This document shows, piece by piece, positions 2,522 through 64,000 of a stretch of 64,000 nt of DNA (position 1 is the stretch's first letter; every line of letters starts with the position of its first letter). A model generated the notes under the pieces. It did no database searches, was not told the origin of the DNA, and saw only the letters and a list, made by a program, of their open reading frames with translations. The translations under genes were made by a program, and so were the position numbers. Source of the DNA: a virus. The stretch covers positions 61,054 to 125,053 of the IMG/VR virus record IMGVR_UViG_3300024273_002055; one strand, written 5' to 3'.

Positions 2522-5179
2522 TTAACTTCCGCAAGCTTCACAATTTTCTGGATTATCTAGGCTGCAAGCCATTTGAGACATTGCATCAGCCTCTTCTTCT
2601 GACATGTCTGTAGAAGAATTGGGCAACACAACTTCAGAAATAGATGCTGAAGGCTGAAGCCTTCCGTCACTATCTACTTTTTCAACAACTTTAATTTCAG
2701 GCATGATTTCAGTTATTACTTCTGATTTTGTGTCTGAATTTTCAGTTTTAACTTTAGGCTTTTCCTTTAAAGAATTTACATCTGTACCTAATGATTTTCT
2801 AGCTTCTGACTTTGCATTACTCCTTAAATAATACATTCCTGTCTTTAAGCCTTTAGACCACCCATAAAATAATGCTTTATTTATCTTTGCAACATTTGCA
2901 TCTCTTATGAATAGATTCATAGATTGCGATTGGTCTATGAATGCAGCTCTATCTGCAGACATGTCTATGAGGTTGCTGGCCTTCATTTCCCAAACGGTTT
3001 TGTAGGTCAACTTAATGTCTTCTGGAATTTCTGAAATAGTTTGAATAGAACCATTGTTTTGAATCATTTTTATTCTGACTTCATCATTCCATAAGTTTAA
3101 GTTTATTAAATCTTCAACCAAATGTCTGTTAACTAAAACAAATTCTCCTGACAAAACATTTCTCTTATATAAGTTGTTTGTAAAAGGTTCAAAACATTCA
3201 TTGTTTCCCAATATTTGAGCAGTAGATGCGGTTGGCATTGGAGCTACAAGTAGTGAGTTTCTTACGCCATATCTTATTACAGACTTTTTCAACTTAGACC
3301 AATTCCATAACCCAGATAAATCACCCTCTTCAATTCCCCACATATCATACTGAAAAATGCCCTTAGAAACAGGAGACCCTTTAAAGGATGAATATGCACC
3401 AGAAGTTTCGGGTGTTTGTGAGTTTACTAAAACCTCTTCTTTGTGTAATGATTTTGATATGTCATTTGAAGCTGTCATAGCTGCAAAGTATATTGTTTCA
3501 AATATATCTTTATTTAACTTTTTAGCCGCATCTGACTCAAAAGGCATGCCCATTAGAGCAAAAGTATCTGCCAAACCTTGAACTCCTAAACCTATAGGTC
3601 TATGTCTCATGTTTGAATTTCTAGCTTCTTTAGTGGGATACCAATTTACATCTATAACTTTATTTAAATTTAAAGTGGCTTGATATGTAACATCGTAAAG
3701 CTTTTGAAAATCATAATTTCTAAGCGTCTTATCTTTAGATTTAACCTTTCCAGTTGGAATTTCTACCATTTTAGGAAGGGCTATAGAAGCTAAATTACAT
3801 ACTGCAGTTTCATCCGGGGTGCTTACCTCCATGATTTCTGTACACAAATTAGAAGACTTGATTACACCTATATTTTTTTGATTGCTTTTTTTGTTTGCAG
3901 AGTCTTTATACAAAATGTAGGGAGTACCAGTCTCTATTTGAGCCTCTAAAATATGTCCCCACAACTCTCTAGCTTTCATTACTTTTTTGCCCCTACCTTC
4001 TGATTCATACTTTTCGTATAATTCAGTAAACGCCAAACTAACTTCTGATTCATTTAAAATTTCTCCATCTTTATTGTATTCAGGACACACATCATACACA
4101 TCAGACAATCCAGGACACTCATTTGGACACATTAAAGTCCAATTACCGTCATCTCTTACTCTTTGCATAAACAAGTCAGGAGTCCATAGTGCCAAAAATA
4201 AATCTCTTGCTCGCTCCTCTTCTTTACCGTGATTCTTTCTTAAGTCAATAAAACTTTCTACATCAAAATGCCAAGGCTCTAAATATATAGCAAAAGAACC
4301 TTTTCTCTTTCCTCCTTGATTTATCCACCTAGCAACTTCGTTGTAAGTTTTAAGCATAGGTAACAATCCATCAGAATTACCCCCAGTACCCTTAATGTAA
4401 GAGCCTTTAGACCTAACATTGTGAACATGAAGACCTATGCCGCCAGACCATTTTGATATTTTTGCCACATCTTTTAGAGTGTCAAATAAAGAATCTATAT
4501 CATCACCTTTATTTGCAACTAAAAAGCAAGAAGATAGCTGTGGTTTAGGCGTTCCAGAATTAAACAATGTTGGCGTGGCATGTGTAAATTGTCCTGTAGA
4601 TAATAGTTCATAAGTTTTTTGAACTTCTTTTAAATTATCACCCCATATACCCAATGCCACTCTCATGTACAAATGCTGTGGTGTTTCTACAACCTTTCCA
4701 TTTATCTTTAAAAGATAAGACCTTTCTAATGTTTTAAATCCAAAATACTCAAAATCCAAATCTCTATCATGAATAATCATAGATTCAATTTTTTTATAGT
4801 TTGACTTTACAACGTCCAACAACTCCTCAGAAACTAAAGGGGCATGCTCTTTTGTTTTTGGGTCTACATTGTTATATAGGTCACTGACCGTATCTTTAAA
4901 TGATTTTTTAGTCTCTTTCTTTACTGAAGTCAAGGCTATTCTGGCTGCAAGTATTGAATAGTCAGGATGTATTCTAGTCAAGGATGCAGATGTTTCTGCA
5001 GCTAAAGTGTCTAACTCTCTAGTTGTAACACCATCATAAACTCCTGCAATTACCTTTTTGGCAATCTCCATATAATCAATATAATCTTGGTCTAGTCCAT
5101 ATGTTTGCTTTTTAATTCTAGCTGATATTTTATCGAACTTTACAGCCTCTTCAGAGCCATCTCTTTTTATTACTTTCAT
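2522..5179 (-). CDS. nrdA: Ribonucleoside-diphosphate reductase alpha subunit (class I)
   Basis: An 885-residue large subunit of aerobic ribonucleotide reductase, which reduces NDPs to dNDPs with NrdB. An ATP-cone (residues 1 to about 95, opening MKVIKRDGSEE) gives allosteric control. C218 (SSCFL) and C461 (AVCNLAS) are the active-site redox pair, and NLCTEI at 443-448 carries the catalytic Asn-Cys-Glu triad. The C terminus ends CEACGS, the swinging CxxC (C880, C883) that re-reduces the active site. No intein or frameshift interrupts it. It lies 17 bases downstream of nrdB, in the same direction, and is followed by a strong terminator. The two genes form an operon behind a host-type promoter and supply dNTPs for phage replication. 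Confidence 0.97.
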   Translation of the reverse strand: MKVIKRDGSEEAVKFDKISARIKKQTYGLDQDYIDYMEIAKKVIAGVYDGVTTRELDTLAAETSASLTRIHPDYSILAARIALTSVKKETKKSFKDTVSDLYNNVDPKTKEHAPLVSEELLDVVKSNYKKIESMIIHDRDLDFEYFGFKTLERSYLLKINGKVVETPQHLYMRVALGIWGDNLKEVQKTYELLSTGQFTHATPTLFNSGTPKPQLSSCFLVANKGDDIDSLFDTLKDVAKISKWSGGIGLHVHNVRSKGSYIKGTGGNSDGLLPMLKTYNEVARWINQGGKRKGSFAIYLEPWHFDVESFIDLRKNHGKEEERARDLFLALWTPDLFMQRVRDDGNWTLMCPNECPGLSDVYDVCPEYNKDGEILNESEVSLAFTELYEKYESEGRGKKVMKARELWGHILEAQIETGTPYILYKDSANKKSNQKNIGVIKSSNLCTEIMEVSTPDETAVCNLASIALPKMVEIPTGKVKSKDKTLRNYDFQKLYDVTYQATLNLNKVIDVNWYPTKEARNSNMRHRPIGLGVQGLADTFALMGMPFESDAAKKLNKDIFETIYFAAMTASNDISKSLHKEEVLVNSQTPETSGAYSSFKGSPVSKGIFQYDMWGIEEGDLSGLWNWSKLKKSVIRYGVRNSLLVAPMPTASTAQILGNNECFEPFTNNLYKRNVLSGEFVLVNRHLVEDLINLNLWNDEVRIKMIQNNGSIQTISEIPEDIKLTYKTVWEMKASNLIDMSADRAAFIDQSQSMNLFIRDANVAKINKALFYGWSKGLKTGMYYLRSNAKSEARKSLGTDVNSLKEKPKVKTENSDTKSEVITEIMPEIKVVEKVDSDGRLQPSASISEVVLPNSSTDMSEEEADAMSQMACSLDNPENCEACGS

Positions 5180-5196
5180 CTATTTTTTTTTTAAAA

Positions 5197-6219
5197 TTAA
5201 AACTCGTCATCTCCACCATCGAAACTGATTGTATTTTCTGCAGTATCTCCACCAACTCCAGATTTAGAATAGTCTCCAACTCTTTTTTCGAAAAAGTTTG
5301 TTTTATTTTCCAAGGCTATATTAGACATAAAGTCAAAAGGATTTTTAGCTCCAAACATAGGTTCGCAATTTAAGTCAGACAATAAAACATCAGACACATA
5401 TTCTAAATATTCAGACATCAATTTTGAATTCATACCTATTAAGCTAACTGGTAGCGATTCTGTAATGAACTCTTTTTCTATCTCTAAAGCAGAACCTATT
5501 ATTTCTTTAATTCTTTCTTTAGAAACTTTATTTACAACATGGTTATTGTGTAAGTGAGTGGCAAAATCACAATGCAATGCCTCGTCTCTAGATATTAGCT
5601 CATTAGAGAAGCTAAGACCAGGCATAAGACCTCTACTTTTTAACCAAAAAATAGAACAAAAAGAGCCAGAAAAGAATATCCCTTCTACTGCCGCAAATGC
5701 TATAAGCCTTTCTGCGAAACTATCAGACTCAATCCACTGTAAAGCCCATTCTGCCTTTTTCTTTACAGCAGGTATTGTATCTAAAGCATTAAACAATCTA
5801 TCTTTCTCTTCCTTATTTTTAACATAAGTATCAATAAGTAATGAATATGTCTCAGAATGTATGTTTTCCATTGAAATTTGAAAACCATAGAAAAATTTAG
5901 CTTCAGCATATTGTACTTCGCTCAAAAAATTTTCTGCTAAATTTTCATTAACAATGCCATCTGATGCTGCGAAAAAGGCTAAAACATTTTTTACAAAATA
6001 TCTTTCATTTTCAGTTAACTTCTCCCAATCAACTAAGTCTTGTTGTAAGTCTATTTCTTCAGCAGTCCAAAAGCTTGCTTCTGCTTTTTTGTAAAATTGC
6101 CAAATATCATCATGTTGTATAGGAAAAACCACAAATCTATTAGGGTTATCTTTTAATATATTTTCTTCTGATATATTGTTTTTCATTTCAATTTCTTTTT
6201 CTAACATTTTTTCGTTCAT
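5197..6219 (-). CDS. nrdB: Ribonucleoside-diphosphate reductase beta subunit (R2)
   Basis: A 340-residue R2 subunit that houses the di-iron centre and tyrosyl radical needed by NrdA. The metal ligands are visible: D57 in EEIDL, E88 or nearby in the first helix pair, E118 and H121 in MENIHSETY, the later Glu in AAVEGIFF, and E/H in [11 protein letters not shown]125 (MENIHSETY) is the radical tyrosine. The wording [11 protein letters not shown] and MENIHSE is that of the eukaryote-like R2 group rather than the E. coli type. The C terminus (FDGGDDEF) is the acidic tail that docks on NrdA. It is first in the nrdBA operon, with a TTTG/TATATTTG promoter about 35 bases upstream. Confidence 0.97.
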
Positions 6220-6253
6220 ATTTTAATATTTTTATTTTAACCCTTAATCTACA

Positions 6254-6284
6254 CAAATATAATAATAGTAAATTCTTTACCAAA
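6254..6284 (-). promoter_or_regulatory. Host-type (Bacteroidota) promoter of nrdBA
   Basis: On the minus strand the -33 element TTTG (printed CAAA, 6281-6284) is 19 bases from the -7 element TATATTTG (printed CAAATATA, 6254-6261). This matches the Bacteroidota house-keeping consensus TTTG/TAnnTTTG. The start of transcription would fall near 6247, giving a leader of about 28 bases. Confidence 0.7.
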
Positions 6285-6306
6285 ATTAATTCATACTTTT
6301 TGACAT

Positions 6307-6804
6307 TTAAGTTTGTGATATTTTTTGAATATCTAAACCTGCAATATTTGAGAGCCCATAATTAGACTGATTTACATCTTGCAAAACTCTAATATCCAAG
6401 TTTGAAGTGTCAAAATGTAGGTCAACAGCAAATCCGTCTTCACCATTTCTATTTTTCAATATCATCATCTTAGCTTTGTTTACAGCTTTATCCTCTTCAG
6501 TTCTACCTATCCCCAATATTAAATCAGCAGTTTGTGCCTTACCCAAACTCTCACTAATAACCCTTAAATCAAATTTTGGTGAATTAATAGCCTCTCTATT
6601 TGCTTGAGTTGCTGTCCAAATTGGAACATTTAATTCCATAGCCATAGCTCTAAGAGTTTCGTAAATACTAGTCAAATTATACCTTCTTTCAGAATATTCA
6701 GAAGTGGACTTCATAATGTCTGCATAATCTACAAATATAACATCTGGCTTTATGCCGTGGTCTCTTTCTAAAGATTGCAAGTGAGCTCTCAACGTATTTA
6801 CTGA
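6307..6804 (-). CDS. Replicative DNA helicase, C-terminal part (frameshifted)
   Basis: About 165 residues forming the second half of a gp41/DnaB-like RecA-fold helicase. PDVIFVDYADIM is the Walker B strand. WTATQANREA and ESLGKAQTADLI are the conserved sensor and linker motifs that follow Walker B in DnaB. The frame has no ATG of its own; the earliest start-like codon is TTG 6792. The reading continues that of the gene at 6798-7709 after a -1 shift at 6804 (GCT then TCA-GTA-AAT-ACG), restoring TASVNTLRAHL. It is best seen as the same gene with one base missing rather than a separate gene. Confidence 0.85.
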   Translation of the reverse strand, partial: SVNTLRAHLQSLERDHGIKPDVIFVDYADIMKSTSEYSERRYNLTSIYETLRAMAMELNVPIWTATQANREAINSPKFDLRVISESLGKAQTADLILGIGRTEEDKAVNKAKMMILKNRNGEDGFAVDLHFDTSNLDIRVLQDVNQSNYGLSNIAGLDIQKISQT

Positions 6805-7709
6805 GCTGTACCAGTTGGAAATTCTTTTATAAAAAGTCGTCCCCCTTTATTTTTAATATACTGAGATGTTTCTTTTATTTTGTCAACATATTCAGTAACA
6901 TACTTTAATGGTATGTTATTCAAGGCTGCGTCAAATCTGTGACCTATTTTCTCTTCTTTCATTTCTAAACTATAATAAAGAGCTTTTTTACCATTTAACA
7001 TTGCATTACTAGCTAACCTTACTAATCCCATAGATTTACCACCACCTGTAGGAGCTAATATTATTGCAAGTTCACCACCAGAAAGTCCTCCACCTATAAT
7101 ATTGTCTAACCCCTCCATTGCAGCCACTGGCTCTCTGTTCTCTATTATCAACCTCTTCTCAATATCATCCAGATAGTTATGACCACTACTCTTTGGCTCT
7201 CCCAACTTCAAGCTGTCTCCTATTATAACTGATATGTTATCATAATCTTCAACTTCCCATGCTTTTGCAGCTTTTAAAAGCCCTTTTTTAAGGCCTTGTC
7301 TTTTACAAAATTCTAAAGAAATCTCCTTGACAAACTTCTGGTCGTTGTGCTTATATTTTGAAATTATATCTATTAACTCTATTAGTTGCTCTTGCTGTAT
7401 TCCAACCTCTTTGTACTTAATTAGACTTATTAAAGTTTCATAATTTGGTAAAAAATTATATTTGGCTATATATTTTGACATATGTTGAAACAATATCTTG
7501 TGTTGTATATTGTCAAAATGTTTAGCATATAAAATGTCTAATATTTGCTGTGAAAATTCCTCATCTTCGATAAAACACTTTATTAACTTAGTTTGAAAAA
7601 TAGACTCTTTCATAGCCTCTTTTCTTCCAGAGTAATCATCGACACTATCAAAAGCATCAACTATTTCATTAGTGTTAAAATCTTTTATGTTTTCTTTACT
7701 TTTTTGCAT
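6798..7709 (-). CDS. Replicative DNA helicase, N-terminal part (gp41/DnaB-like)
   Basis: A 303-residue fragment containing the helical N-terminal domain (residues 1 to about 185) and the start of the RecA-like motor. Walker A, APTGGGKSMG, is at about 219-228, and YYSLEMKEEKIGHR matches the DnaB motif 1a. It should unwind DNA at the phage fork as a hexameric 5'-3' helicase. The frame ends at TAA 6798-6800 just after FPTGTAQ, while the -1 frame continues with the expected sequence to 6307. Together the parts give about 468 residues, close to T4 gp41. A TATTTAT motif lies 20 bases upstream. If the stop is genuine, the helicase lacks Walker B and would be dead. Confidence 0.9.
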   Translation of the reverse strand: MQKSKENIKDFNTNEIVDAFDSVDDYSGRKEAMKESIFQTKLIKCFIEDEEFSQQILDILYAKHFDNIQHKILFQHMSKYIAKYNFLPNYETLISLIKYKEVGIQQEQLIELIDIISKYKHNDQKFVKEISLEFCKRQGLKKGLLKAAKAWEVEDYDNISVIIGDSLKLGEPKSSGHNYLDDIEKRLIIENREPVAAMEGLDNIIGGGLSGGELAIILAPTGGGKSMGLVRLASNAMLNGKKALYYSLEMKEEKIGHRFDAALNNIPLKYVTEYVDKIKETSQYIKNKGGRLFIKEFPTGTAQ

Positions 7710-7827: not shown

Positions 7828-8868
7828 TTACCTTTTTGCTTTATCAATTATCTTAGAAGAGTATTCTTTTTCTTTAGATATCAATCTGTTAAAAGGTCTA
7901 AAAAATAAAGATAAATCATTTTTAAAAATATGCATATTAAAACCATCTTTTATAAATAAATTCATAGCATTATTTATACCTCTCTCCTGTTCTACGGAAG
8001 GCATTATGATTATACAATCCAAAATTTCACTCACGTCATCTATTGCCTTTTGATTGACCATTGGATTTCTCAAATTCATAAGCTCTCTATTCAGTTCAAT
8101 AACTTGTCTTCCATTTATGATTTGCTCATATATTTTTAGAGGCTTTTCCTTATGTTTCTCTTCAGCCTCTTTTATAAGCTCATCTAAAGTATATCTTTCG
8201 TCAAAAAACCTGGGGAAATATGTTTGCATCTTTTTCATTCCGACACCTTTCAATCCTGAAATGCAATCTGAAGTATCACCTTCTATACATTTAGCAAAAA
8301 GGGCATTTTTATGAGTGTATCCAAATATTTCCTTAAAATTATTAACAGTTATTAACTTGCCATCAGAAGGTCTTATTACAGATACGTTTTCATCAATCAA
8401 TTGGTGGAAATCTTTATCACTGCTATATATTAATACATTTTCATTTTTTGACTTATTCTTAACATATAAACCCAATAAATCATCTGCCTCTACATATTCA
8501 ACTTCCACTTGTCTTACACACAATTCTTCAAGGTAGTTTTTTACTTTTATTTTTTGTTTTAAAGTGCTGTATTTATTCTGTTTCTCCTCATCAATTTCAT
8601 CATCTGTAAAATAATACGACTCCTCATCCCAGGACTTATTTCTATTGCTCTTATATAAAGGGTAAATTTTCTGTCTAAAAATTCCTGACATAATACCGTC
8701 CCAAAAAACAACAACCCTATCAGGCATGGTTTTATCCACTATAGACCTTAGGCTATCTAAAAATCCATATGAACCTCCGCAATGTTCACCTTTGGAAAAT
8801 AAGTCTTGCCGTTTCATGAAATTCCTTTTAAGATTCCACTCTCCGTCTATTAAAAGAACTTTTTTCAT
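7828..8868 (-). CDS. 5'-3' exonuclease / flap endonuclease (T4 RNase H-like)
   Basis: A 346-residue FEN-superfamily nuclease, expected to remove RNA primers and 5' flaps during lagging-strand synthesis. The acidic metal-binding motifs appear in the family order: LLIDGE (5-10), the later FWDG, EADDLLG (127-133), SSDKDFHQL (149-157) and GDTSDCISGLKGVG (197-210). The last leads into the helix-3-turn-helix DNA-binding region. Its length is close to T4 Rnh (305 residues), with a longer C-terminal part. It shares one base with uvsX at 8868, indicating translational coupling. It complements the family A polymerase at 10849-12480, which lacks the 5' nuclease domain found in bacterial Pol I. Confidence 0.92.
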   Translation of the reverse strand: MKKVLLIDGEWNLKRNFMKRQDLFSKGEHCGGSYGFLDSLRSIVDKTMPDRVVVFWDGIMSGIFRQKIYPLYKSNRNKSWDEESYYFTDDEIDEEKQNKYSTLKQKIKVKNYLEELCVRQVEVEYVEADDLLGLYVKNKSKNENVLIYSSDKDFHQLIDENVSVIRPSDGKLITVNNFKEIFGYTHKNALFAKCIEGDTSDCISGLKGVGMKKMQTYFPRFFDERYTLDELIKEAEEKHKEKPLKIYEQIINGRQVIELNRELMNLRNPMVNQKAIDDVSEILDCIIIMPSVEQERGINNAMNLFIKDGFNMHIFKNDLSLFFRPFNRLISKEKEYSSKIIDKAKR

Positions 8869-10848: not shown

Positions 10849-12480
10849 TTATAGACATTCCATATAGTTTTTTCCAGAAGACAAATCTACATCAAACGTC
10901 ATATCGTTATATTTAGAAAGTATTTTTGTAATATCATTAATAGAATTATAATCATCTGGGTGTATGTCCATAACAAATGAATCATGAACTTGAAACATAA
11001 ATGAAGATTTGCTATTTTTTAGCCAAACCTTTAGTTCCTGTATCTTGTCCACAACTATTTCTGTAGCCGTTGATTGTACATAATTATTAAATGCTGCATA
11101 AGACTTATTTGGCTTAATTAATGTTCCAAATGGATTTATTATATAACCCAACTCCTTATATACATTGTTTATATATTCAGAAGTTGTCAATATTGGAGAT
11201 AAAAAATTCTTAACATTAGCTAAAGACTTTTCTACATCAGAATTTTCTACTTTTGAAATTATACTCTTTATTAACTTATCACCCCCTCCGTACAGAATGG
11301 CATGGTTTACATCTTTGGCAACTTTTCTATGACTTTTAGTAATTTCCACATCTCCAAACATTGCTTTAGCGGCATTGTAATGTAAGTCTGAATTCATATT
11401 CTCTAATATAAATCCCTCGTCCCTAGATAAATACATTGAAAGCCTAGTTTCAAAAGATTTATAATCAAAAACTATAATAGTACCATCTTTATATCTAGAT
11501 ATAATTTGATTTCGAATAACGCTATCCTTAGGTAACATTTGTGGATTAAAAGAATCTACACAATTAATACGTCCTGTTATAGTTCTTTTGTCAGAATATC
11601 TTAACATTAAATATTTCTTTCCATTATCCCAAGTACTCCTAACTCCATTAGGCACTTTGAAATTAGAGTCAAAATATATTTTATTAGTAGATAGCCAAGA
11701 AGTTACTTTATCTTTTACGGTCTGCCTCATGCATGAGTTTAACTCATCTTTTGTAACTTCATGATTGTCTCTTATTATTTTCATTAAAACAGGTATATTT
11801 CTATACATATTTCTTCCTAAAAACATCCTATTAAAATCTTTTGGTTCTATATAGTGTGAATATTTAGACCAAAATATATTTTCAGTTGTCATAACATCTC
11901 TCAATTGGTCTATATATACATATTTTACAGAATTATAATAGCTAAACAAAGTGCATTCAACTTTATTTATAAGTCCTGTTAATATTTTTTTAGAATCTTT
12001 ACCAACAAAATCTAAACTAGCTATACTTATAGCGTAAGTATCTGATTCATTGTGAATGTAGCACACATTTTTATGAAAATAAATAAAAGACCTTGATTTC
12101 TTGTTGATGTTTTTTAAAAAAAAATCTCTCAAATCCCCATCTACTATAGAATCGTAGGATATGGGTTTTTTGTGAAAAAATTTCTTTATAGAATATTCCA
12201 AGAAAGACTTTATGTCAGATTTATTTTTTTCTTCTTTTTCTGTCAAACTAAAAGTCCAAAACAGATTATCGCTTATTTTGCCAGATAAAATGGACTGCTC
12301 TGGATACATTTCTTTAACCTTATTCCATCCCAATATTAGTGTTGGAACTATAATTTCAGAATTTGGGTCTATACAGTCTATTACATCTAATGCGAACTCA
12401 CCATAATGAGTATTTATGTAATCTGAATCATCTGATGAATAAGGAAGTATTTTGCAAATCTTTATTAAATTATGGAGCAT
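10849..12480 (-). CDS. Family A DNA polymerase (Pol I-like), polymerase domain only
   Basis: A 543-residue polymerase. Motif A is VFDYKSFETRLSMYLSRDE with catalytic D339, motif B is RKVAKDVNHAILYGGG (about 388-403), and motif C is FQVHDSFVMDI with D500. TGRINCVDSFNPQMLP is the usual palm/thumb segment before motif A. The N-terminal 250 residues show no recognisable 3'-5' exonuclease motifs (no DxE) and no 5' nuclease. Proofreading is therefore absent or degenerate here, while a DnaQ-type exonuclease is fused to the other polymerase of this phage. Gap filling, repair, or an auxiliary replicase role are all possible. A TATTTAT motif lies 23 bases upstream of ATG 12480. Confidence 0.9.
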   Translation of the reverse strand: MLHNLIKICKILPYSSDDSDYINTHYGEFALDVIDCIDPNSEIIVPTLILGWNKVKEMYPEQSILSGKISDNLFWTFSLTEKEEKNKSDIKSFLEYSIKKFFHKKPISYDSIVDGDLRDFFLKNINKKSRSFIYFHKNVCYIHNESDTYAISIASLDFVGKDSKKILTGLINKVECTLFSYYNSVKYVYIDQLRDVMTTENIFWSKYSHYIEPKDFNRMFLGRNMYRNIPVLMKIIRDNHEVTKDELNSCMRQTVKDKVTSWLSTNKIYFDSNFKVPNGVRSTWDNGKKYLMLRYSDKRTITGRINCVDSFNPQMLPKDSVIRNQIISRYKDGTIIVFDYKSFETRLSMYLSRDEGFILENMNSDLHYNAAKAMFGDVEITKSHRKVAKDVNHAILYGGGDKLIKSIISKVENSDVEKSLANVKNFLSPILTTSEYINNVYKELGYIINPFGTLIKPNKSYAAFNNYVQSTATEIVVDKIQELKVWLKNSKSSFMFQVHDSFVMDIHPDDYNSINDITKILSKYNDMTFDVDLSSGKNYMECL

Positions 12481-36050: not shown

Positions 36051-36533
36051 ATGAAAGAGAATAAGCTAATTTTAGGCTTTGGGAGTGTTAAGGAATTGAT
36101 GGATTCTGTACTCGGACTAAAGAACTCACTTGTAAATTTTGTACTTGCCGCATGCACAGCTTTAACATCATTTATAACACAATATATATGGGATGATGCT
36201 TCTGCGGTATATTTTATGTTGTTTTTAATTTTAATTGACGCATCTACTGGTGTATGGAAATCTATTGTAAACAGAAGTTTTAGCAGCAGTAAATTGCCTA
36301 GGATTTTTGTAATTTCCATAATATATGTTTTAATGCTATCTATAAGCTGGCATGCCGCAAAGCACTCAAGCTTGTTTGTCTGGTTGCCTGGTATGGTTTA
36401 TGGGGGACTAATTGGAACTCCTTTAGTTTCTATATATGAAAACTTTGCCGAATTAGGCTATGTACCCAAAGGGTTAGTTTATGATATTAAAGAAAAAATA
36501 AAAAATTACTTTAACAAAAAACATAACAACTAG
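36051..36533 (+). CDS. Holin (phage_holin_4 / TcdE-like)
   Basis: About 160 residues from ATG 36051; an in-frame TTG at 35985 gives a polar extension that I do not favour. Hydrophobic segments are FVLAACTALTSFITQYIW, AVYFMLFLILIDASTGVW, LPRIFVISIIYVLMLSISW and LFVWLPGMVYGGLIGTPL. The LILIDASTGVWKSI signature and the following SSSKLPR are characteristic of the phage_holin_4 family, which makes membrane lesions at the end of infection. The basic, amphipathic C terminus (EKIKNYFNKKHNN) faces the cytoplasm in the family. It is one of few plus-strand genes and converges on dnaE with a 4-base overlap. Confidence 0.75.
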   Translation: MKENKLILGFGSVKELMDSVLGLKNSLVNFVLAACTALTSFITQYIWDDASAVYFMLFLILIDASTGVWKSIVNRSFSSSKLPRIFVISIIYVLMLSISWHAAKHSSLFVWLPGMVYGGLIGTPLVSIYENFAELGYVPKGLVYDIKEKIKNYFNKKHNN

Positions 36534-38746
36534 TATACCCTCCTAAATTGACATCCATCCTGAAATTTTAACCAATTTCTTTCTTTGGAAAACTTAGTCA
36601 AATATATACCTCCCTTTTCCACTAAATCCTTTATTCTATCATAAGCATCTGACCAAACTACCATCTTAACAGATGCACCTCCATCGCTGAGTTCTAGAGA
36701 CCAATATTTTTTGTTGTTTTTAGATATTTTTTCTACAACATCTTTTATCACAAAATAATAATATTTATCAGGATTTTCATAAGAAGTAACGGGTTCAACG
36801 TTAAAGTCATACTCTTCTTTAAATTGCTTCTTTATCTTAGATATTTTATCAAAAAGCTGTAAATCCAAACTACAAACATCTATAAAATCTTTGTACTTAA
36901 TATCCTTGGGAGTTGGCTCAAACTTCTCCTTAAGACTCTCCTCTATAATGTCAAATCTATTTTGACCAAACAAGTCCATTTGCATAGTATTGCTTTTTAT
37001 TTTAAACTTACGAAACTCCATAAGCTCTTCTCTAGACTCTGACCAATCATCAAAAACTCCTGCCTTTAAGCAGGCTTCAAAGTTTGCTTTATTGAATTTA
37101 GAAAATTTATGCATAAAAAACTTATCCTTACCAACATTAGAAATATCGACTTTTTGCAATTCTTCATAGGCAATTTCTCCCATACCATTTATACTAGAAA
37201 AACCCATTAAAATAGTTTCTTCATCTAACATACCCCATTCCCATTTTGACTTTCTATTAGGAGGCAAAACTTTTATACCCTTAGTGAAAGCGCCCATTAT
37301 AGCCGATGAAAGCCAAGACTCATCATCTTTAGCATGATTTAATAGAGCTGCATAGAATTCAGTAGGATAGTACCTCTTCATAAACAGGGTTTGCATAGCA
37401 ACATAACTGTAACTCACTGAGTGTGAGCGATTAAAGGAATATCCTAAATACTTTACTAACCACTCTTCTATGTCTTTAACTTCATTTTCCTTAAGCCCCT
37501 TTTCTTTACAGCCTGACTTAAACTTTTCCCAAAGTGTCAAATACTCTTTATAGTTCTTATTATTATATTCTTTTTCTTCCAATTTATCTCCTGACAAATT
37601 CTTTTTTATGATTTTTGAGGCCTTATCCATAACTTTCCTCAAATTATCACCCTCACCAAGAGTCATGCCTGCCAGCTCATGAGCTATAAACATTAGTTGC
37701 TCTTGAAATATTAGTACACCATTAGTATTTCTAAGTAAAGGCTCTAGAGATGGGTGCACCAAACTTATTTCTTCTGGGTTTTTCTTATTTCTGATGTACT
37801 CCTCGTGAGCACCAACTCCCATAGGTCCAGGTCTGTATAATGCATTTGCAGCCACCATCTCTTCGAAGCTCTCTATGTGCATTCTTTTTATCAGTTTAGA
37901 CATACCATCAGACTCAAATTGAAACACCCCTTGATTGTTTCCGCTTCTAATCTCTTCAAACAAATCAGAATTGTCTAAATCAACATACTTTACCTGCTCA
38001 GAAACATCTATACCCCTATTCTCTTTAACTAACCTTATAGCTTGTTTAAGTATGTTTAATGTTGTTAAATTTAATCTGTCTAACTTTAATATACCTAAGT
38101 CAGATAAGTCTTTACCACTACCAGACTCTTGAAATCCAGAAACAGTGACTCCTTTTACCATATTTACAGGCATATATTCCCAAACAGGGCCTGGAGTTAT
38201 GACTATGCCTGCGGCATGTTTTCCCAAATTTCTAACTTGACCCTGTAGAGTGAGTGTTGTATCTATTGTTTTTTTGTTACTGGGGCTTTCTATCCATTTC
38301 TTAACCAAGTCAGAAGCTTCAGGTGTATTAGGGTGTTGTTCTAGCCAATCTTTTAAATCGCCATCATATTTCATAAACATTTTTGGCATTTCCTTGGTAA
38401 CTGCAAATATTTCAGAATCAAACCCTCCGTCTCCTCCAAATGCCTTGACTACATCTTTTATACAACCCTTCTCATTAAATGTTGAAAATGTTATTACTGG
38501 GAAAACGCATTCTTTTCCATATTTGTTATACAAGAACTCATCAGTCTTTACGTCTGAACCAGTCTCAAAATCTATGTCAATATCTGGTGGAGAATTGTGT
38601 ATTAACACACTGGAAATCAACGTGTTATGGCACTCACTTAAATCTTTACTTGAAGAGAAGAATAAATTATCTTTATCAAAAGATAGGTCATACACCTTTC
38701 CTTTATAAGGAATTTTTTTTATACTTCTAATTTTAGATATTTTCAT
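36530..38746 (-). CDS. dnaE: Split DnaE: C-terminal intein half + C-terminal polymerase part
   Basis: 738 residues from ATG 38746; a TTG three codons earlier is unlikely. Residues 1-51 are a C-terminal split-intein half: GKVYDLSFDKDNLFF is block F, and LIHN|S is block G with penultimate His50, terminal Asn51 and nucleophile Ser52. Block F and G are separated by 16 extra residues including a decoy CHN. The C-extein begins SPPDIDIDF, the DNA polymerase III alpha active site (Asp55 and Asp57), with the third catalytic Asp at about 223 (LKLDRLNL). Further family C landmarks are QFESDGMSKLIKRM, ALYRPGPMGVGAHEE and FNRSHSVSYSYVAMQTL. The OB-like tail ends at 36530. Splicing to the product of 39864-42068 would rebuild one replicase. 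It overlaps the endonuclease gene by 14 bases. Confidence 0.9.
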   Translation of the reverse strand: MKISKIRSIKKIPYKGKVYDLSFDKDNLFFSSSKDLSECHNTLISSVLIHNSPPDIDIDFETGSDVKTDEFLYNKYGKECVFPVITFSTFNEKGCIKDVVKAFGGDGGFDSEIFAVTKEMPKMFMKYDGDLKDWLEQHPNTPEASDLVKKWIESPSNKKTIDTTLTLQGQVRNLGKHAAGIVITPGPVWEYMPVNMVKGVTVSGFQESGSGKDLSDLGILKLDRLNLTTLNILKQAIRLVKENRGIDVSEQVKYVDLDNSDLFEEIRSGNNQGVFQFESDGMSKLIKRMHIESFEEMVAANALYRPGPMGVGAHEEYIRNKKNPEEISLVHPSLEPLLRNTNGVLIFQEQLMFIAHELAGMTLGEGDNLRKVMDKASKIIKKNLSGDKLEEKEYNNKNYKEYLTLWEKFKSGCKEKGLKENEVKDIEEWLVKYLGYSFNRSHSVSYSYVAMQTLFMKRYYPTEFYAALLNHAKDDESWLSSAIMGAFTKGIKVLPPNRKSKWEWGMLDEETILMGFSSINGMGEIAYEELQKVDISNVGKDKFFMHKFSKFNKANFEACLKAGVFDDWSESREELMEFRKFKIKSNTMQMDLFGQNRFDIIEESLKEKFEPTPKDIKYKDFIDVCSLDLQLFDKISKIKKQFKEEYDFNVEPVTSYENPDKYYYFVIKDVVEKISKNNKKYWSLELSDGGASVKMVVWSDAYDRIKDLVEKGGIYLTKFSKERNWLKFQDGCQFRRVY

Positions 38747-39833
38747 AAGACTCAACTATATTTTTAATCATTATTATAATATTTTCCCTATTCTCTTTCC
38801 AGTCGTTCTCCCAAATTTCAATAAAATTACATTTGAGAATATTTATTATCTCATTTTTTCTCTTTCTGTCATCCTTCCAAATTTCACTTGCATATTTGTT
38901 TTTATTTTTATGATAAAAACTATTTTCATAAATTAAAGGATTACAATGCCAATAGTCTCCCATAACCTCTATCACTATATTGTATTCTTCATTATAATAA
39001 TCAATCTTATAGAATTTATTTTTATTTATAACTAATATCTTCTGCCCTAAAGGTGATTTTTTAAAAAAAGAGTCTCCTGGGACTTCTTTTGATATTTCAG
39101 CAATAATTTCTCTTTCCAACTTAGATGTCTCTCCAAAATTTTTATTTACCTTTTTAGCATTTGCAAGCTGCCATTCATCAGAATAAAATAAATTATCTAC
39201 TCCAAATTTTTCTTGCATAGAAATCGTTACTGCAGAATAATGACAACCTCTCTCTAAAAACCATTTAACACCATATTTATTCTCTATTGTTTTTGAAATT
39301 TTATCTCTAATCTCTTTTATTTGAACAGGGGATGTCATTCCAGTAACTCCATAATTTTCATTTAAACTCCTATTAAAAGAGTCTCTATATTCTCTAGTTT
39401 TATAGTAAAGTGATTTATAATCTTTCTCCGAAATTATATAACCATGTGACCAAAATTTTACTCCCCCACGAGATGGATGTAATTTAACTAAAACATTTTT
39501 TTTACTAAACCTATCATAAATCTGAATCTTCGCATCTGTTATTGAAATCTCTTTATTTAAATCAGTTTTTACTCTAACTGACTTCTGACCCCTTCCGCTT
39601 TTTCCAAAAAAACACCTTGTTGCTTTTCCAATATTTACCTCTCCTACAAAGACAAACTTTCCAACCACATTTTCCAAAGAAATAAATAAATCACTCTTAT
39701 ATTCCCAATCTCTTTTTTCTTCTTCAGATGCTAACTTTAGCTCTTGAAAGCCAACTAAAGCTTCACACAAATCTTTTTGTGTATCAAAATTATTATTTTC
39801 TATTTCTTCTTTTTTCATTTTACTATAATCCAT
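38733..39833 (-). CDS. Vsr-like homing endonuclease between the split dnaE halves
   Basis: A 366-residue protein lying between the two intein halves, in the same direction. The C-terminal nuclease (about 245-360) reads KSPLGQKILV, YKIDYYNEEYNIVIEVMGDYWHCNP, IWKDDRKRKNEI and FIEIWENDWKENRE. This is the fold and motif order of Vsr and the EDxHD homing-endonuclease family. Before it, KISKTIENKYGVKWFLERG and MQEKFGVDNLFYSDEWQ are two short GV-type modules that serve DNA recognition in large-phage homing endonucleases. It should cut intein-less alleles of dnaE and promote spread of the whole cassette. An ATATTTAT-like element touches its start (39838-39844); Met6 at 39818 is an alternative start. 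Confidence 0.85.
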   Translation of the reverse strand: MDYSKMKKEEIENNNFDTQKDLCEALVGFQELKLASEEEKRDWEYKSDLFISLENVVGKFVFVGEVNIGKATRCFFGKSGRGQKSVRVKTDLNKEISITDAKIQIYDRFSKKNVLVKLHPSRGGVKFWSHGYIISEKDYKSLYYKTREYRDSFNRSLNENYGVTGMTSPVQIKEIRDKISKTIENKYGVKWFLERGCHYSAVTISMQEKFGVDNLFYSDEWQLANAKKVNKNFGETSKLEREIIAEISKEVPGDSFFKKSPLGQKILVINKNKFYKIDYYNEEYNIVIEVMGDYWHCNPLIYENSFYHKNKNKYASEIWKDDRKRKNEIINILKCNFIEIWENDWKENRENIIIMIKNIVESYENI

Positions 39834-39863
39834 GTCTATAAATATAGATAAAAACTTTAAACT

Positions 39864-42068
39864 TTAAAAAGAAAACAGTAAGTCTGTTTCTTTTATTTCA
39901 TCAACTCTTATTTCAATTCTTTTTTTATCTCTGAAAACAGGAATTATATGACACCCTGTGAGCTGAACAACAGAACCGTCTTCAGTCTCTATCTCAAATA
40001 TATTCTCATGCTCTTCCAGCTCTCTCTCATGCTTCTGAACCAAGACTCCTTTTCCAGTTTCAGTCTGCACTGGGTCTCCGACTTTAACATCCACTACATT
40101 TTTATAAGAACCATCTTTCATCATAACATTACAATTATCTGTAAGACAATTTCTGGCTGGATTTAAGAATCTTTCAAAATACAAATCAAACCTTATCGGG
40201 TCAATCTTTGTTATGTCTAAGCACCAAGAAAGTAAAGAGCCTGCCGCACTTCCCCTTCCTGGCCCTACCTCTATATCGTTGTCGGCACAAAACCTTATAA
40301 GCTCCCAAACCACAAGAAAATAATCCAACATTTTCTTTTCTTTTATAACCTCCAGCTCATAGTCTAGCCTTTCTCTGTACTTAGAAATTTTATCATCATC
40401 TATTTCAACAGGCCCACGCTCTTTATATATATTAAGCTTTTGATTAAGCTTAGCATGTGACAACCTTCTTATTATCTCTTCTCCATCATTGGTTTTAAAA
40501 AAGTCATAAACATCTTTAGTTGGCTTATATTTCGGATATTTCTCTACGTCTGTTTCAAAGTCAAAATTACATATAGAAGCAATTTTTTCACTTGTAATCA
40601 TACACATTTTTATGAATTCTTCACTATAATTAAATCCATAATTCTTGTTCATTTCTAATATCTCAGACTCGTCAACGTAGTACATGTCCCTACTGTCTTT
40701 GGTCCTAGCTCTTTTTATAGACCTTTTTTGATTTATTGAAATCAATACATCTTGTAGTACTTTATCCTTTTTTTCTGGGTAGTATATGTCATTAGAAATT
40801 ATTACAGCCATACTATATTTGTCTGACATGTTAATTATGAAGTCATTATAATTCCTTTGTACCTCATTGTCCTCAAGGGAAATTTCGGCTATATAAGACT
40901 TTTTTCCAAATGCACTTAACATGCTCACTAGATAATCTTCAGCATCTTTATATTTGCCCATTTGCAAATATTTACATATTGTTCCGTTTTTAGATGAAGT
41001 TGTTAATATCAAACCCTCTTTATTCTCCAAAATCCATGAAGTTTTTATTCTAGGAACTCTATAAAAACCTTCAGCAAATGATAAATAATTTATTTTATTA
41101 ATATTAACAAAACCCTCTTTATTTGTAACTATTATTTTTTGAAGAACATTTTTATCTTGTTGCTTAGGCTCATACTCACCACCAATACTATCGTTTAAAT
41201 GAAATTCACATCCTATTATCGGTTTTATGTTTTTAGATTTACACTTTTGATAAAAAGAAAAAGCACCAGACAAGCTACCTTTATCTGTCAAAACTAAAGA
41301 TTTGTGATTATACTTTTTGGCTAAATCAATATAATCAGAAGTTGAACCAGCACCTTCTAGTACAGAATGATAAGTGTGAACTCCAAAATTTACCATAGAG
41401 AAGTCGTTATTAAAATCTCCATTTTTTGACTTCCACTTATTAATTATATTTTGTTCAGAATCAACTGAAGACATATGTGTTTTGAAGTCATCCCCAAAAC
41501 CTAATCCACCTATTCTTCTGAGCTCGAAAAAACATCTAGCCAACGCCTCAACATCAACCAGTGCATCATGAGCATCTTCAAAAGCCTTGTTAAACAACTT
41601 CTTGTGCAATTCTGTAAGAGTAGGAGGCTTAAGTCCCATCTTGCCTTGTATTCTACAAAAATCTATAGTAGAATTCATAGTGCATATATTCACTATGTTT
41701 CTCATTGAATTTTTCATTTTTAATCTAAAAAACTCAGAAGCCGTAACTTTATTGTCGAAACTTACATTGTGTGCAACAATAAAATTAGAATTCTCTATAT
41801 CTTTAGAAAATTCTTTCAAGACATCAGAAATTAAAACACCATCTCTGTTAGCTCGTTCATTAGTTATTCTATGAATTCTAATGCTATCATCTGGTATGAC
41901 AAAACCGTCTGGTTTTATAATTTTATTATTAGAGCTTATGACTTTACCATTTATGTCATACACCTTCCATGCCAACTGAACTATTCTGGGCCAATTGTCC
42001 GTATCGCTAACTGGTGCGCTAAAATCTTCAGGAAGCCCTGTGGTTTCTGTATCAAATACTATAAACAT
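39864..42068 (-). CDS. dnaE: Split DnaQ-DnaE fusion: exonuclease, PHP, polymerase N-part + N-terminal intein half
   Basis: 734 residues from ATG 42068 (MFIVFDTETTG). Residues 1 to about 190 are a DEDDh DnaQ-type 3'-5' exonuclease (FDTETTG, HNVSFDNK, HDALVDVEA). Next comes a PHP domain of degenerate sequence (FGVHTYHSVLEGA, VLTDKGSL where family members have HG). Then the polymerase N-part (EVGPGRGSAAGSLLSW, FDLYFERFLNPARN). The last 94 residues are an N-terminal intein half: Cys1 (CLTDNC), block A (KDGSYKNVVDVKVGD) and block B (GSVVQLTGCHIIPV, with Thr and His). It ends without block F or G. Its partner is 36530-38746. A host-type promoter lies directly upstream, implying early transcription. 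Confidence 0.92.
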   Translation of the reverse strand: MFIVFDTETTGLPEDFSAPVSDTDNWPRIVQLAWKVYDINGKVISSNNKIIKPDGFVIPDDSIRIHRITNERANRDGVLISDVLKEFSKDIENSNFIVAHNVSFDNKVTASEFFRLKMKNSMRNIVNICTMNSTIDFCRIQGKMGLKPPTLTELHKKLFNKAFEDAHDALVDVEALARCFFELRRIGGLGFGDDFKTHMSSVDSEQNIINKWKSKNGDFNNDFSMVNFGVHTYHSVLEGAGSTSDYIDLAKKYNHKSLVLTDKGSLSGAFSFYQKCKSKNIKPIIGCEFHLNDSIGGEYEPKQQDKNVLQKIIVTNKEGFVNINKINYLSFAEGFYRVPRIKTSWILENKEGLILTTSSKNGTICKYLQMGKYKDAEDYLVSMLSAFGKKSYIAEISLEDNEVQRNYNDFIINMSDKYSMAVIISNDIYYPEKKDKVLQDVLISINQKRSIKRARTKDSRDMYYVDESEILEMNKNYGFNYSEEFIKMCMITSEKIASICNFDFETDVEKYPKYKPTKDVYDFFKTNDGEEIIRRLSHAKLNQKLNIYKERGPVEIDDDKISKYRERLDYELEVIKEKKMLDYFLVVWELIRFCADNDIEVGPGRGSAAGSLLSWCLDITKIDPIRFDLYFERFLNPARNCLTDNCNVMMKDGSYKNVVDVKVGDPVQTETGKGVLVQKHERELEEHENIFEIETEDGSVVQLTGCHIIPVFRDKKRIEIRVDEIKETDLLFSF

Positions 42069-63595: not shown

Positions 63596-64000
63596 TTATA
63601 AAGCTTTAATAAAACCTTTGATTTCAGATTTATCAATTAATGCACAAAATTCTAATCCTGAATCTCTAACTGATTGCCATTTAGTATCATTTATATTTTG
63701 TAACTCTAAATCTTTTCCGTTTTTATTATAAGTCCATCCAGATTTTATTTCTATTTGCTTACCTTTAAATTTAAAATCAACATGATATGAATGTATTTTG
63801 TTTTCTAAAACATATTCAAACGTGTCTCCATTTAAAACTTCCCCCAATAAACCTTTATCTTCCATTAGTTCAAGAAACAACTTTTCATAAGAGCCTTGAT
63901 AATGAAGTTCCGTTTCTTTATATTTAAACATCTTAAACTGAGCCTTAAAGTGCTTTTGAAACATTTCACCATCCTTAAGATGATGCTCTACTCCAAAATT
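63596..64000 (-). CDS. PD-(D/E)XK-type homing endonuclease-like protein, 5' end cut by window edge
   Basis: The frame is open to base 64000, so the start lies outside the window; ATG 63964 is internal. The first visible residues NFGVEHHLKDGEMFQKHF are one of the short FGVE-type modules that large-phage homing endonucleases use for DNA recognition. The nuclease part follows: ELHYQGSYEKLFLELM (first acidic residue), then SYHVDFKFKGKQIEIKSGW (Asp and E-x-K of the PD-(D/E)XK core) and SGLEFCALIDK. It resembles the YQGxYExxFL nucleases of large phages. It does not look Vsr-like, so it is a second endonuclease type beside those at 31335 and 38733. It sits beyond the tail tube gene. Confidence 0.6.
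   Translation of the reverse strand, partial: NFGVEHHLKDGEMFQKHFKAQFKMFKYKETELHYQGSYEKLFLELMEDKGLLGEVLNGDTFEYVLENKIHSYHVDFKFKGKQIEIKSGWTYNKNGKDLELQNINDTKWQSVRDSGLEFCALIDKSEIKGFIKAL

Follow-up and report, generated by a model that had tools for sequence, protein, structure and literature searches.

Fractured genes, in which a split intein breaks a conserved enzyme, mostly one that serves DNA synthesis or repair in phages, and a Vsr-like endonuclease gene lies between the two halves, are said to have been described by Dassa et al. in 2009 for eight enzyme types, with gp41, NrdA, NrdJ and IMPDH reportedly among the examples. The locus considered here lies in a 64,000-nt stretch of DNA (the window, to which coordinates refer unless another contig is named) from a 125-kb IMG/VR contig whose phage character is apparent from its portal, terminase and baseplate genes. 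It has in common with those fractured genes a conserved replication enzyme, a split intein, a Vsr-like gene between the halves and a phage setting, but it differs from these examples in its host protein, which is DnaQ-DnaE. At the level of sequence, the analysis confirms that a split intein interrupts a phage DnaQ-DnaE polymerase and that an EDxHD endonuclease gene lies between the halves; this arrangement is very probably a mobile element of the fractured-gene kind, which combines trans-splicing with homing in a phage replicase.

Split inteins in bacterial-type DnaE, and several inteins in one DnaE, are both familiar from cyanobacteria (Ssp, Npu, Trichodesmium); the dnaE of Trichodesmium is split and multi-intein according to Liu & Yang (2003), as far as that work is cited in PMC5874633. 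The cyanobacterial halves are encoded far apart with no endonuclease gene between them, whereas those of the window are adjacent around one, and the window intein sits at RFLNPARN/SPPDIDIDF (the slash marks the junction) and not at the cyanobacterial junction, Y/CFNKSHS. A split intein with an intervening endonuclease gene also separates the two halves of PolB in Pseudomonas phage MIJ3 (PMC6892783). The MIJ3 case involves a family-B polymerase and an HNH endonuclease, in contrast to the DnaQ-DnaE and EDxHD pair of the window. The gp41-1 split intein (PDB 6qaz) is also naturally split and phage-type, but it is remote in sequence and belongs to a different host protein. The type member of the EDxHD homing endonucleases, I-Bth0305I (PDB 3r3p), is intron-encoded; it has the EDxHD catalytic domain in common with the window enzyme, which differs in having an N-terminal part of its own of about 220 residues.

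Organisation of the locus

The open reading frames (ORFs) of the two dnaE halves, and of the endonuclease between them, are all on the minus strand and were found where the original prediction had placed them:

39864..42068, minus strand: gene for the N-terminal half, 734 aa, with a DnaQ-type 3'-5' exonuclease, PHP, the first part of the DnaE palm and the N-intein
40149..42068, minus strand: N-extein, 640 aa, last residues RFLNPARN, aligning with intact orthologues up to the junction
39867..40148, minus strand: N-intein, 94 aa, with Cys1 and block B T64..H67 (Pfam Hint/Intein_splicing)
38733..39833, minus strand: free-standing gene for a putative EDxHD (Vsr-like) homing endonuclease, 366 aa
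38736..39161, minus strand: C-terminal catalytic domain of the endonuclease, residues 225-366
38733..38746, minus strand: 14 nt shared by the 3' end of the endonuclease gene and the start of the C-terminal half, read from the sequence
36530..38746, minus strand: gene for the C-terminal half, 738 aa, with the C-intein and the rest of the palm, fingers, HHH and OB fold
38594..38746, minus strand: C-intein, 51 aa, last residues LIHN, with Y113-D114 and H144-N145 (joined-intein numbering)
36530..38593, minus strand: C-extein, 687 aa plus stop, starting SPPDIDIDF, with the rest of the palm, fingers, HHH and OB fold
38594..40148, minus strand: whole insert, 1,555 nt, not in the empty alleles L003, L004, L008 and L010

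The assignment to a family C replicase with DnaQ is borne out by Pfam and NCBIfam domains in both halves. The N-terminal half matches RNase_T (5.2e-15), PHP (2.9e-28) and DNA_pol3_alpha (2.5e-33) and is covered by NCBIfam DnaE models up to residue 644, and the C-extein matches DNA_pol3_finger (1.2e-44), DNA_pol3_alpha (4.4e-26) and HHH_6; PHP, a palm with the catalytic DxD, fingers and HHH, features of the family, are present. The endonuclease gene overlaps the C-terminal half by 14 nt in the relatives L019 and L042 as well, and by 4 nt in L014 and L017.

The limits of the insert are set by the codon starts of Cys1 (40148) and Ser+1 (38593). In the four intein-less orthologues (L003, L004, L008, L010) RFLNPARN/SPPDIDIDF is unbroken, with 78-86% DNA identity on both flanks, and these exact empty sites rule out that the 94- and 51-residue segments are ordinary extein sequence. 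The joined exteins do have their usual length, as had been claimed: the junction reads the same in all four intact orthologues, and 640 + 687 residues add up to 1,327 aa, precisely as long as L003, which is about 98% identical to the window across the catalytic region (the C-extein is 95-96% identical to L003/L004). At the junction of the predicted 1,327-aa spliced product the sequence is RFLNPARNSPPDIDIDF. The insertion had also been placed exactly at the catalytic aspartates; it does lie in the catalytic core, but three residues (SPP) ahead of the first Asp in DIDID and not on an aspartate.

The metagenomic origin of the locus leaves an assembly artefact or a pseudogene to be considered. However, the 5.7 kb recur with 2 differences (99.96% identity) in a separate contig, L002, and an assembly chimera is therefore unlikely. 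Moreover, the same architecture occurs in other phages with 41-58% identity between the homing endonuclease genes (HEGs), and the frames are open and constrained, so that the chance of either kind of artefact is negligible.

The split intein

Our counts agree with the 94 and 51 residues first given for the N- and C-intein, and when joined the two segments reach 38.3 bits with Pfam Intein_splicing, above the cut-off of 35.8. The residues of a class 1 split intein are all present (Cys1, the Thr and His of block B, the Asp of block F, the terminal His-Asn and Ser+1), and C1, T64, H67, D114, H144 and N145 are invariant across nine loci, whose inteins are 49-76% identical to that of the window. A profile of the intein matches the gp41-1 split intein in PDB with an E-value of 2.6e-6. 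In the pair L014-L017 the ratio of nonsynonymous to synonymous substitution rates (dN/dS) comes to about 0.05 in the N-intein and about 0.09 in the endonuclease, both approximate because dS is 1.3-1.8; these ratios indicate purifying selection on the intein as well as on the nuclease.

No match to the window N-intein was found among 50,697 phage records. In 84,980 cellular genomes, no DnaE intein at the RFLNPARN/SPPDIDIDF site was found with a pattern (HN, two residues, PD-x-D-x-DF) that is blind to inteins without the terminal His-Asn or shifted by one residue; the sole match was an unrelated TPR protein.

The endonuclease

Taken alone, the window endonuclease has only weak family matches, to DUF7487 in Pfam and to a homing endonuclease family in PHROGs. 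In an alignment of 39 sequences of the catalytic domain, D54, E65, G68, H72, W117 and E118 are invariant and D69 and D98 nearly so, and the profile built from it matches the catalytic domain of I-Bth0305I (PDB 3r3p) at 3.6e-11 and Vsr (1cw0) at 1.1e-4, which upholds the Vsr-like nuclease of the original prediction. A model of the catalytic domain from the same alignment has a predicted local distance difference test (pLDDT) score of 91, and its top fold matches include Vsr, I-Bth0305I and related nucleases, none of which reaches an E-value of 0.001. The full-length model from six sequences was of moderate quality and gave no useful structural match, and at the sequence level neither the endonuclease by itself nor a six-sequence profile had a relevant match in PDB. 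The EDxHD/Vsr-like identity is thus supported mainly by the sequence profile.

The endonuclease gene has a G+C content of 27%, compared with 36% in the neighbouring extein. In the contigs that were read, near-full-length relatives are located only between dnaE halves, unlike the catalytic domain alone, which is widespread; matches in phage records are confined to the nuclease domain, at about 35% identity, in Lak phages. The same-site enzyme has been kept in several phage lineages, over the range of identity given above. A second DUF7487 match, truncated by the contig end, is found at 63596-64000 of the window and is possibly another homing endonuclease.

Distribution and mobility

The fractured arrangement at RFLNPARN/SPPDIDIDF, hereafter site 2, is found in about eleven phage lineages, and about twenty related contigs are empty there. 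The occupied lineages, grouped by us from near-identical ORF layout, are the window with L002; L014-L016; L017; L018; L019; L042/L043; L096 with L100, L102, L105 and L107; L097; L106; L108; and L191. The state of site 2 requires a minimum of 8 changes on the polymerase tree, where the window is nested among empty relatives that are 98% identical to it; one exact site is thus polymorphic, occupied in some alleles and empty in others. The extein tree rejects a clade of the window, L014 and L017 (p 0.021), but the endonuclease tree groups these three (support 81/83). Between the window and L014, the N-intein is 76% identical, compared with 56% for the extein. The conflict between the trees, the higher identity of the intein than of the extein and the scattered distribution favour horizontal transfer of the insert, as read from these comparisons.

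Further insertion sites and multiply split polymerases

Among relatives the polymerase occurs whole or in two, three or four pieces, and it has two more insertion sites there, GPGRG/SAAGS (site 1) and YSFN[RK]/SHS (site 3). Site 3, as SFN[RK]/SHS, is presumably a few residues from the cyanobacterial junction Y/CFNKSHS, and sites 1 and 2 lie elsewhere. The three sites hold different inteins, each with an endonuclease gene of its own and with a cross-site N-intein identity of 20-32%, and those at sites 1 and 3 are in cis in some phages and split in others. In G005 (L181, reverse complement) the inteins of sites 1 and 3 are in cis and that of site 2 is split, and G006 (L182, reverse complement) has a cis intein at site 3, as does L213; the cis mini-inteins of L181/L182 are homologous to the split inteins at the same sites in sister phages. 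Sites 2 and 3 are both split in L019 and the L096 group, and sites 1 and 3 in L011. Since at two of the sites one and the same intein is split in some phages and in cis in others, cis-to-split conversion and split-intein homing could be traced in one gene.

A possible trace of homing concerns site 3. Over 8,367 nt L005 and L011 are 99.98% identical, up to the site-3 split intein present in L011, and four synonymous changes fall within 12 nt just upstream of that insertion. The comparison covers the upstream flank only, because the contig ends, and on that flank the pattern agrees with the one expected from homing with short co-conversion.

In L106/L183 all three sites are split and DnaE is encoded in four pieces, which in L183 are as follows:

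G001:C1:17400-24700, 147-2252, 2684-3178, 3876-5483 and 5943-7031: the four DnaE ORFs of L183

Together these ORFs span DnaE from end to end with no internal stop. The second piece has 164 aa, of which only 34 are polymerase, flanked by two intein fragments. In this phage group, three distinct and mutually selective trans-splicing reactions would thus join as many as four polypeptides into one replicative polymerase, a reading that we consider probable. Neither three insertion sites in one gene nor a four-piece polymerase is, to our knowledge, known from the fractured genes of Dassa et al. 2009, and, within a literature search of open papers, no natural protein that three split inteins assemble from four parts is known to us.

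Split inteins are also found after loss of the endonuclease. All three endonucleases of L183 have decayed to 3' remnants, each overlapping the next start; in L100, compared with L096, a 1,011-bp deletion has taken most of the site-2 endonuclease and left the intein pieces intact; and L005/L009 have a site-1 split intein without HEG. That the split inteins outlast their HEGs in this way would fit a trans-splicing reaction retained as a useful control step, in timing or in the sensing of stress, besides safeguarding a parasite. However, such persistence is expected in any case, as the gene is restored only when intein and HEG are deleted precisely, and close relatives without any intein exist; retention as a control step is therefore unlikely.

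Proposed mechanism and alternatives

The steps proposed for the mobile element follow the known chemistry of class-1 inteins and homing endonucleases, on which splicing, cutting and copying are all modelled. The two halves would be translated as separate polypeptides, whose 94-aa and 51-aa intein pieces would then associate; Cys1 would be converted into a thioester, Ser+1 would take over the chain and Asn would cyclise, which would yield a seamless 1,327-aa polymerase. In a co-infection the endonuclease would cleave an intein-less dnaE at RFLNPARN/SPPDIDIDF, and repair of the cut site would copy the whole insert into it. The insertion point is in one of the stretches where the protein can vary least; the intein could thus be lost only via exact deletion, and escape of a phage by mutation would be difficult.

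Several observations weigh against this scheme, the first two of them against a dependence of replication on splicing. The contig also encodes a family-A polymerase (10849-12480), and in a distant phage group DnaE is broken near the same junction with no intein at the break. Each Foldseek match of the nuclease model is weak on its own, with E above 0.05, and the support of the HEG tree is moderate (81/83). No co-conversion tract was seen at the insertion in the window, whose flanks are already about 15% diverged.

From the distant phages with intein-less broken DnaEs it follows that two unjoined pieces may be workable, and the halves could accordingly form a non-covalent two-subunit polymerase with the intein pieces as vestigial, non-splicing tails; in L054, L063, L075, L079 and L081 DnaE is indeed encoded by two or more genes with an intein-less break nearby. 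However, these distant genes have extra sequence at the break and not intein pieces, and in the fractured loci the splicing residues are invariant down to about 50% intein identity and dN/dS of the N-intein is about 0.05, which makes vestigial tails very improbable. In the five distant DnaEs the break precedes SPPDIDIDF, and some of them have an N-intein at a cyanobacterial-type FADY/C.

The family-A polymerase raises another alternative, in which it replicates the genome, DnaE is dispensable and the fractured gene is tolerated. Alongside the family-A gene there is a separate FEN-type nuclease (7828-8868), as this alternative would have it, but the exteins are strongly constrained (dN 0.012 and dS about 1.25 between the window and L003) and the catalytic DIDID is intact in close relatives. 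A dispensable DnaE is thus rather improbable. A dependence of replication on trans-splicing is no more than plausible, given the family-A polymerase and the distant DnaEs with an intein-less break.

Other features of the window and its relatives

At 6307-7709 of the window, a DnaB-like helicase is encoded in two frames (303 + 161 aa), which may point to a split gene, to a frameshift or to misassembly. In L005 (11454-14789) a RecD2-like helicase has a cis intein in its P-loop (GVGK/C...HN/TTT) with a LAGLIDADG-like motif, and upstream of dnaE in L018, L019 and L029 there are portal-type ORFs of 1311, 1345 and 1482 aa, about twice the usual length and probably intein-bearing. The gene starts that were looked at in the window and its relatives have A+T-rich leaders with no clear Shine-Dalgarno, given which a Bacteroidota host is possible. 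The window has no Rfam match and no tRNA, and a promoter scan of it gave 43 matches, compared with 31 expected in shuffles, a result that does not bear interpretation.

Implications

This phage group has split inteins and their homing endonucleases set within the catalytic core of its replicase. One gene family shows empty alleles, cis inteins, split inteins whose endonuclease is intact, deleted or decayed, and genes split more than once, and thereby all the states needed to study the origin and spread of split inteins. Because the N-intein of the window is unmatched in the phage records, the inteins of this group may be regarded as new split-intein pairs. A DnaE in four pieces would be a natural example of the assembly by several selective inteins that protein engineers attempt, as in the three-segment scheme of PMC12707363.
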